From positions 1 through 44,428 of the IMG/VR virus record IMGVR_UViG_3300031951_000338: DNA of 44,428 nucleotides. One strand, given 5' to 3'. Below the pieces are notes generated by a model, which saw only the letters and a list, made by a program, of their open reading frames with translations, searched no databases and was not told the DNA's origin. Below are positions 32,605 to 33,055 of the stretch, piece after piece. A program made the translations under genes and the position numbers. The DNA comes from a virus. Positions within the stretch are counted from its first letter, which is position 1. The number at the start of each line of letters is the position of its first letter.

Positions 32605-32758
32605 AGATGAAATAGTTTAGTTATAGCGGGGGTTGGTGAGGGATTTGGGGTGTTCTGGGTTTGTTCTAATGTTCTAAAATTTGTTCTAAAAATAAACGTA
32701 AAGTTAGAACAAGAAGTTTACGTATGTGAAGGGGGAGAGAGTGTGTAAGTGCTTGATT

Positions 32759-32790
32759 TATATATATATATATATATATATATATATATA
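32759..32790. repeat. (TA)16 dinucleotide tract
   Basis: Sixteen uninterrupted TA repeats, continuing into ATAATATT, between two exact copies of the 17-nt double iteron. Easily melted or able to form a cruciform. Confidence 0.97.
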
Positions 32791-33055
32791 ATAATATTGT
32801 TTGTTCTAATGTTCTAAGATTTTTGGGGGGGACGGGGGGTTGGCGACTCATTTTTTGCTATACGTCAGGTTCCCACTTGCCAATCCCCTCGCTTGCAAAA
32901 AGATGCGTCCGGACGGCGTATACCCTAACTTTACGGAACAAATAGAACAAGTAGAACATTCTTTAAAATCAAGGACTTACAAATACCCCTATTGTTGACC
33001 TGTTCTATATTTTTAGAACAAAAAGTTTACGTAAGCAAAAAACCGCCGAAATTTC

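Follow-up and report, generated by a model that had tools for sequence, protein, structure and literature searches.

In satellite phage P4, the alpha protein is a fusion of primase, helicase and origin-binding domain, and the short iterons are present in both orientations. In PICI origins, two iteron sets flank an AT-rich region (PMC6092414). SaPIbov1 Rep (8tch) is an iteron-binding initiator helicase, and such helicases bind iterons via their C-terminal domain (PMC7581432). In the case of TcpK, 9-nt tandem repeats are contacted by the beta-wing and not by the recognition helix (PMC6137059). Here, we analyzed an incomplete virus record of 44,428 nucleotides (the whole stretch is referred to as the window). 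Judging from the sequence, an array of 7-bp repeats in the window and the primase-helicase of the virus would function together in the manner of a Rep-ori replicon of the SaPI/PICI type, here within a lineage of aquatic podoviruses, with the helicase family in common, the origin unlinked from the initiator gene, and IHF-like sites flanking the origin. This suggests that replicons of the SaPI/PICI type are not restricted to satellites. Further, an uncultivated and widely recovered podovirus lineage (lake and ocean) gains a probable origin and a predicted initiator.

With SaPI/PICI elements (SaPIbov1 Rep), the virus shares a DUF927 (MCM-like) helicase, sets of short iterons arranged about an AT-rich region, and a primase that is linked or fused to the helicase (fused in the window virus); its C-terminal domain, predicted to bind DNA, resembles that of SaPIbov1 Rep in the modelled fold. 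In contrast to these satellites, the window element is a whole virus that encodes a terminase, portal and capsid itself. The SaPI/PICI origin is located directly 3' of rep, whereas the window array is 18 kb away from the primase-helicase gene (about 17-20 kb in complete relatives), and the window lineage has a near-mirror layout with two IHF-consensus sites and distinct 7-bp motif classes. P4 is similar with respect to the primase-helicase-origin-binding fusion (predicted in the window virus) and the short iterons in both orientations. However, P4 has ori and a separate crr, a second iteron region required in cis, while the window has one array and no second array was noted in relatives; additionally, the P4 origin-binding domain is absent among the Foldseek matches listed for the C-terminal domain. 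Iteron plasmids (RepE, pi, TrfA) also combine multiple initiator sites with an AT-rich block and IHF-like sites, but their iterons are long direct repeats instead of 7-bp sites in tandem and inverted arrangement, and DnaA boxes are found in just 10 of the 152 arrays. No Pfam match to a plasmid Rep family (Rep_3 type) was obtained among the early window proteins scanned.

The early operon of the window runs leftward (34004 to 11553) and encodes PolA, an SNF2-type helicase, an exonuclease and the primase-helicase; the structural genes run rightward from terS/terL at 34350. Complete relatives have a size of 62-67 kb, and 123- or 127-bp end overlaps were present in 7 of the 10 that were read. End overlaps of this kind are what assemblers leave on circular sequences. 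At the contig end of the window (1-252), we observed twelve 21-bp tandem repeats (GATTCCGGTCGAGGAAGAAGA), which probably caused the assembly to stop and possibly represent a coding repeat. A conserved gene pair, encoding an AAA ATPase (phrog_1297) and a DUF2201 metallopeptidase-like/VWA protein (27790-30304, minus strand), is located near the putative origin and is retained in all complete relatives. In Rhizobium phage RHph_TM27A, an ATPase gene and a gene with a metallopeptidase domain are also found near each other.

An earlier note on this DNA had described ten TGTTCTA repeats around (TA)16, and all elements it named are present (Table 1). Ten exact TGTTCTA sites on both strands fall within 359 nt (32662-33020), with only four others in the 44-kb window; the shuffle expectation is 3.97 per whole window, or about 0.03 per 359 nt. 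The (TA)16 tract (32759-32790) is flanked by the exact duplicates reported before, for which we find that the match is exact over 18 nt (TTTGTTCTAATGTTCTAA, 32660-32677 and 32800-32817), and the 21-nt repeat ending AAGTTTACGTA could be located in two copies with one mismatch. Overlooked at that stage were two perfect IHF-consensus sites (the entire window contains four), the near-mirror symmetry of the iteron orientations, and degenerate iterons, e.g., GGAACA immediately left of 32943.

Table 1. Features of the repeat array and of the associated replication genes (window coordinates)
Feature	Coordinates	Strand	Basis
Outer left iterons, three TGTTCTA (32662, 32670, 32682)	32662-32688	+	Site search
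Outer left inverted iteron, within 21-nt repeat 32704-32724	32705-32711	-	Site and repeat search
Left IHF-consensus site AATCAAGCACTTA (WATCARNNNNTTR)	32746-32758	-	Consensus match
AT-rich unwinding element (predicted) with (TA)16; least stable 60 bp of the window start at 32758	32757-32797	.	Duplex stability
Central tandem iteron pair (+ +), 8-bp spacing, kept in relatives	32802-32816	+	Sites, conservation
Spacer between central pairs, 126 bp (relatives: 105-119 bp most frequent)	32817-32942	.	Array layout
Central inverted iteron pair (- -)	32943-32958	-	Sites, conservation
Right IHF-consensus site AATCAAGGACTTA	32967-32979	+	Consensus match
Outer right iterons, TGTTCTA + (33001) and - (33014; within 21-nt repeat 33013-33033)	33001-33020	.	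Sites
Predicted initiator, 964 aa: AEP primase, DUF927 helicase, C-terminal winged helix	11553-14447	-	
C-terminal winged-helix domain, aa 847-947, predicted iteron-binding	11607-11909	-	Structure model
Arg927 codon (wing)	11667-11669	-	R in 42/42 TGTTCxx, H/Q in 7/7 AATTCCA viruses
Tyr942 codon (wing, other side)	11622-11624	-	Separates TGTTCTA from TGTTCCA viruses
Family-A DNA polymerase, same leftward early operon as primase-helicase	19201-21051	-	

A near-palindrome of a different sequence, TCCTGACA(N2)TGTCAGG, is found as a perfect 20-nt inverted pair on either side of the array (32492-32511 and 33053-33072), and a third, imperfect copy lies at about 34098-34117, upstream of the start of the 249-aa gene. 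It looks like the operator of a phage regulator.

Relatives with terminases that are 77-88% identical carry an array of 5-12 TGTTCTA sites about 2-4 kb upstream of terL, and this position, with terS in between, is constant in dozens of relatives. The order of elements recurs as well: two to three outer sites (+), one (-) site, an IHF-consensus site and an AT-rich block on the left, followed by the (+ +) pair, a spacer of usually 105-131 bp, the (- -) pair, the second IHF-consensus site and outer sites on the right. The AT-rich block is the sole break in the near-mirror symmetry. The bipartite TGTTCTA pattern, defined as four 7-mers with conserved spacing, was detected in 58 IMG/VR contigs and in no contig of the GTDB genome collection scanned, which makes the layout in that form a hallmark of the viral lineage. 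Relatives without TGTTCTA have another repeat in the same place (TGTTCCA, TGTTCTG, AATTCCA, AATTCTA or CGTTCTA/TGTTCTA mixtures), and in still other records the repeat is TGTGTCA-like or of the GACACAA/GCACAAA kind. In dedicated scans, mirror arrays were detected with AATTCCA in 21 and with TGTTCCA in at least 120 IMG/VR contigs. The (TA)16 tract itself was conserved only in near-identical contigs and was therefore rejected as a conserved element; what is conserved at its position instead is an AT-rich block of low stability.

The earlier reading as an iteron-type origin with an unwinding element is well supported by the conservation of the array, the duplex-stability minima and the IHF-consensus sites. 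In 26 of 28 records, the 60 bp of lowest stability in the whole record fall within the array; an array makes up about 0.6% of a complete genome. In the first set, 10 of 11 records had their minimum in the array, which ranked second in the eleventh; in a further set, which included several fragments, the same was true for 16 of 17. The IHF consensus WATCARNNNNTTR was present in the left flank of 64 of 152 arrays in comparison to 2.4% of shuffled flanks (about 18-fold), and in the right flank of 74 of 152 in comparison to 1.3% (about 37-fold); we infer that these sites may be occupied by IHF. DnaA boxes were rejected as an origin component due to their rarity. The check by cumulative GC skew suggested previously was carried out and gave a minimum near the array and terL, with no turn at the antipode. 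Since the skew tracks gene orientation, from which the minimum is inseparable, it is uninformative on the origin and was dropped as evidence. Taken from these comparisons, the array around (TA)16 almost certainly represents the start of DNA replication in this virus and in well over a hundred relatives.

The IHF-like sites also bring to mind DNA packaging. The lambda cosB region contains R sites and an IHF site. With its IHF-like sites and its position about 2-4 kb upstream of terL, from which it is separated by terS, the array could in the same manner be a packaging site (pac/cos) for the small terminase. We regard this as very improbable, because an AT-rich stability minimum is no feature of packaging sites, and because no column of TerS or TerL combines conservation in TGTTCxx viruses with loss in AATTCCA viruses, despite several class switches of the array.

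Regarding the protein that recognizes the proposed origin, the earlier note saw no recognizable Rep initiator and pointed to the 249-, 139- or 331-residue gene. These could not be maintained as initiators: relatives that retain the array lack the 249-aa and 139-aa genes apart from a single weak hit, and conservation of the 331-aa gene is weak. The most likely initiator is the 964-aa primase-helicase, in which a DUF927 helicase is combined with a C-terminal domain that resembles SaPI Rep and contains residues covarying with the repeat. A DUF927-type primase-helicase was encoded in all 20 large records of the array clade that were first tested. The window protein matched Pfam DUF927 with 62 bits (cutoff 22.6) and the profile of 5dgk with an E-value of 4e-10, and Foldseek searches with the whole-protein model returned 5dgk (2e-12) and 8tch (8e-12), with weaker matches to the AEP primases RepB' and S-2L PrimPol.

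Analysis of the predicted tertiary structure of the C-terminal 141 residues [AlphaFold2; residue numbers from the full model] resulted in a winged helix with helices at 893-902 and 907-916 and wing strands at 920-926 and 941-947. Confidence in the model is moderate (mean pLDDT 74; domain mostly 75-90). The nearest solved folds of the domain identified by Foldseek were SaPIbov1 Rep (8tch, prob 0.99, with an E-value of only 0.011), the SCCmec helicase Cch (5dgk) and TcpK-oriT (5vfx). Residues 927 and 942 are placed at the two wing strands and are therefore probably close to one another across the wing. A location of the covarying residues in the wing is consistent with TcpK, which reads DNA through its beta-wing.

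To relate proteins to repeats, orthologues of 15 conserved families were taken from records of known motif class, and each of 4,863 columns was tested for TGTTCxx vs AATTCCA. Arg927 of the primase-helicase ranked first; it is the sole column that is invariant in TGTTCxx viruses (R in 42/42) and missing from AATTCCA viruses, which have His (4) or Gln (3) in 7/7 cases. In a tree restricted to primase-helicase residues 1-867, AATTCCA emerged on two separate, well-supported branches, and there were exactly two losses of Arg927, one to His and the other to Gln. For TGTTCTA vs TGTTCCA, column 942 was the best in the primase-helicase, with no residue in common between the classes. Residue 942 agreed with the motif in all five independent pairs (sign test P = 0.0625, residues grouped post hoc), and the AATTCCA class departs from this rule. 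The base for covariation is small, with two independent switches for AATTCCA and five pairs for TGTTCTA/TGTTCCA.

None of the other 14 families had a column that was both fully conserved and class-tracking. On this basis TerS, TerL, PolA, the SNF2 helicase, the exonuclease, the ATPase, and the DUF2201, 309-aa and DksA-like proteins were rejected as iteron binders. The HTH protein encoded at 14513-14938 (minus strand), which adjoins the primase-helicase and comprises about 105 aa in relatives, was rejected since the recognition helix (VSRMTVYTWFRG in the window) hardly differs between motif classes; for the same reason it may bind a non-varying element or be a partner of the initiator.

These results also bear on the possibility that the array is an origin in which a different conserved phage protein binds the iterons and then recruits the primase-helicase. 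Several conserved early proteins have no assigned function (141, 276, 143, 120 and 309 aa), and the 141-aa protein shows a weak HTH match and two class-associated columns. Nevertheless, a fully conserved, class-tracking column was found in none of the 14 families, and initiator helicases of this kind bind iterons via the C-terminal domain (PMC7581432), so that we consider a separate binder unlikely.

Still less probable to us is a purely regulatory role, in which the sites serve a transcription regulator as operators for the early operon and a nearby gene and have no origin function. Such a role would fit the location of the array upstream of the leftward early operon, the separate perfect inverted repeat TCCTGACAGTTGTCAGGGAA that flanks it, and the one TGTTCTA outside the array at 34225, upstream of terS. 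However, 10-13 sites in conserved mirror geometry together with the stability minimum of the genome are too much for an operator. Moreover, the covarying protein is a replicative primase-helicase and no repressor, and the conserved HTH protein keeps its near-invariant recognition helix in all motif classes.

Outside the discovery set, all seven records with a recognizable array have Arg927 and a TG-containing repeat. The primases from a later scan have Arg at 927 wherever the region was read, and no AATTCCA pair was present in the 18 later-scan records searched. In two later-scan records the array consists of TGTTCCA, which matches the forecast made from W or S at position 942, and five more have mixed TGTTCTA/TGTTCCA/TGTTCCG or TGTGTCA/GACACAA-type arrays, with the TG step kept in all of them; the remaining ones are fragments without a recognizable array. 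For three S942 records the forecast held only loosely, since they carry TGTGTCA-like or GACACAA/GCACAAA repeats instead of TGTTCCA.

From this pattern, a more far-reaching reading emerges, for which we see the chances as evenly balanced. Within one phage lineage, origins would fall into distinct classes (TGTTCTA, TGTTCCA, TGTTCTG, AATTCCA, TGTGTCA-like), and a few beta-wing residues of the initiator would correspond to each class, with 927 reading the G of the TG step and 942 the sixth base, and this readable recognition code would have switched about nine times. If true, it would be an initiator-origin recognition code comparable to plasmid incompatibility groups. How DUF927-type initiator helicases read iterons becomes testable, since natural variation provides a predicted contact of Arg927 with the TG step, and the lineage offers a natural set of matched origins and proteins suited to swaps.

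We propose, as the probable course of initiation, that 32650-33040 is a replication origin bound and fired by the virus's own primase-helicase. The C-terminal winged helix would bind the 7-bp repeats, with the wing reading the bases, and IHF or a similar host protein would bend the DNA at the two sites on either side of the central pairs. Initiator assemblies of opposite orientation could then form, one on the (+ +) and one on the (- -) pair, the AT-rich block beside them would melt, and the helicase domains would load, with the fused AEP domain priming and the phage PolA extending. In this scheme, the architecture, conservation, stability minimum, IHF-consensus sites, 927/942 covariation and SaPI-Rep-like fold were computed, and from them we infer direct binding, IHF occupancy, melting and two-assembly (bidirectional) loading.

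Among cultured phages, HTVC023P-type pelagiphages resemble the lineage in a terminase that is about 50% identical and in genomes of about 60 kb, but tblastn gave no match to the primase-helicase in their records. Four cultured HTVC-type genomes, of which 34-41 kb each were read, had no array of the window kind in the part covered. Other repeats cluster in non-coding gaps, namely TGGCACA (seven copies) in phage 023Pt_psg01 at 13575-13800 and CTAGGAA (five copies) in HTVC023P at about 11680-11860. It is possible that these clusters are origins of another kind in phages with a different primase.

The cultured P. aeruginosa phage Rollin (OR577172) encodes a distant version of the primase-helicase (25% identity) and has an analogous array, which is directly mappable. 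Eight of the nine genomic copies of TTGCATA lie within 420 bp (260-680), in a region that also contains an IHF-consensus site, an AT-rich block and the least stable 60 bp, and the record carries no origin annotation there. Unlike in the window lineage, the repeat is TTGCATA, mirror central pairs are missing, and Val occupies the position of Arg927. A second repeat family, AAAAGGTAGYAAGTTACTACCTTTT, overlaps the TTGCATA array. The RHph_TM27A genome has its two least stable 60-bp stretches in one non-coding region (19400-20050) with an IHF-consensus site and no clear iterons, which makes this region a candidate for an origin without clear iterons. The relative of the primase-helicase in this phage is annotated as "putative integrase."
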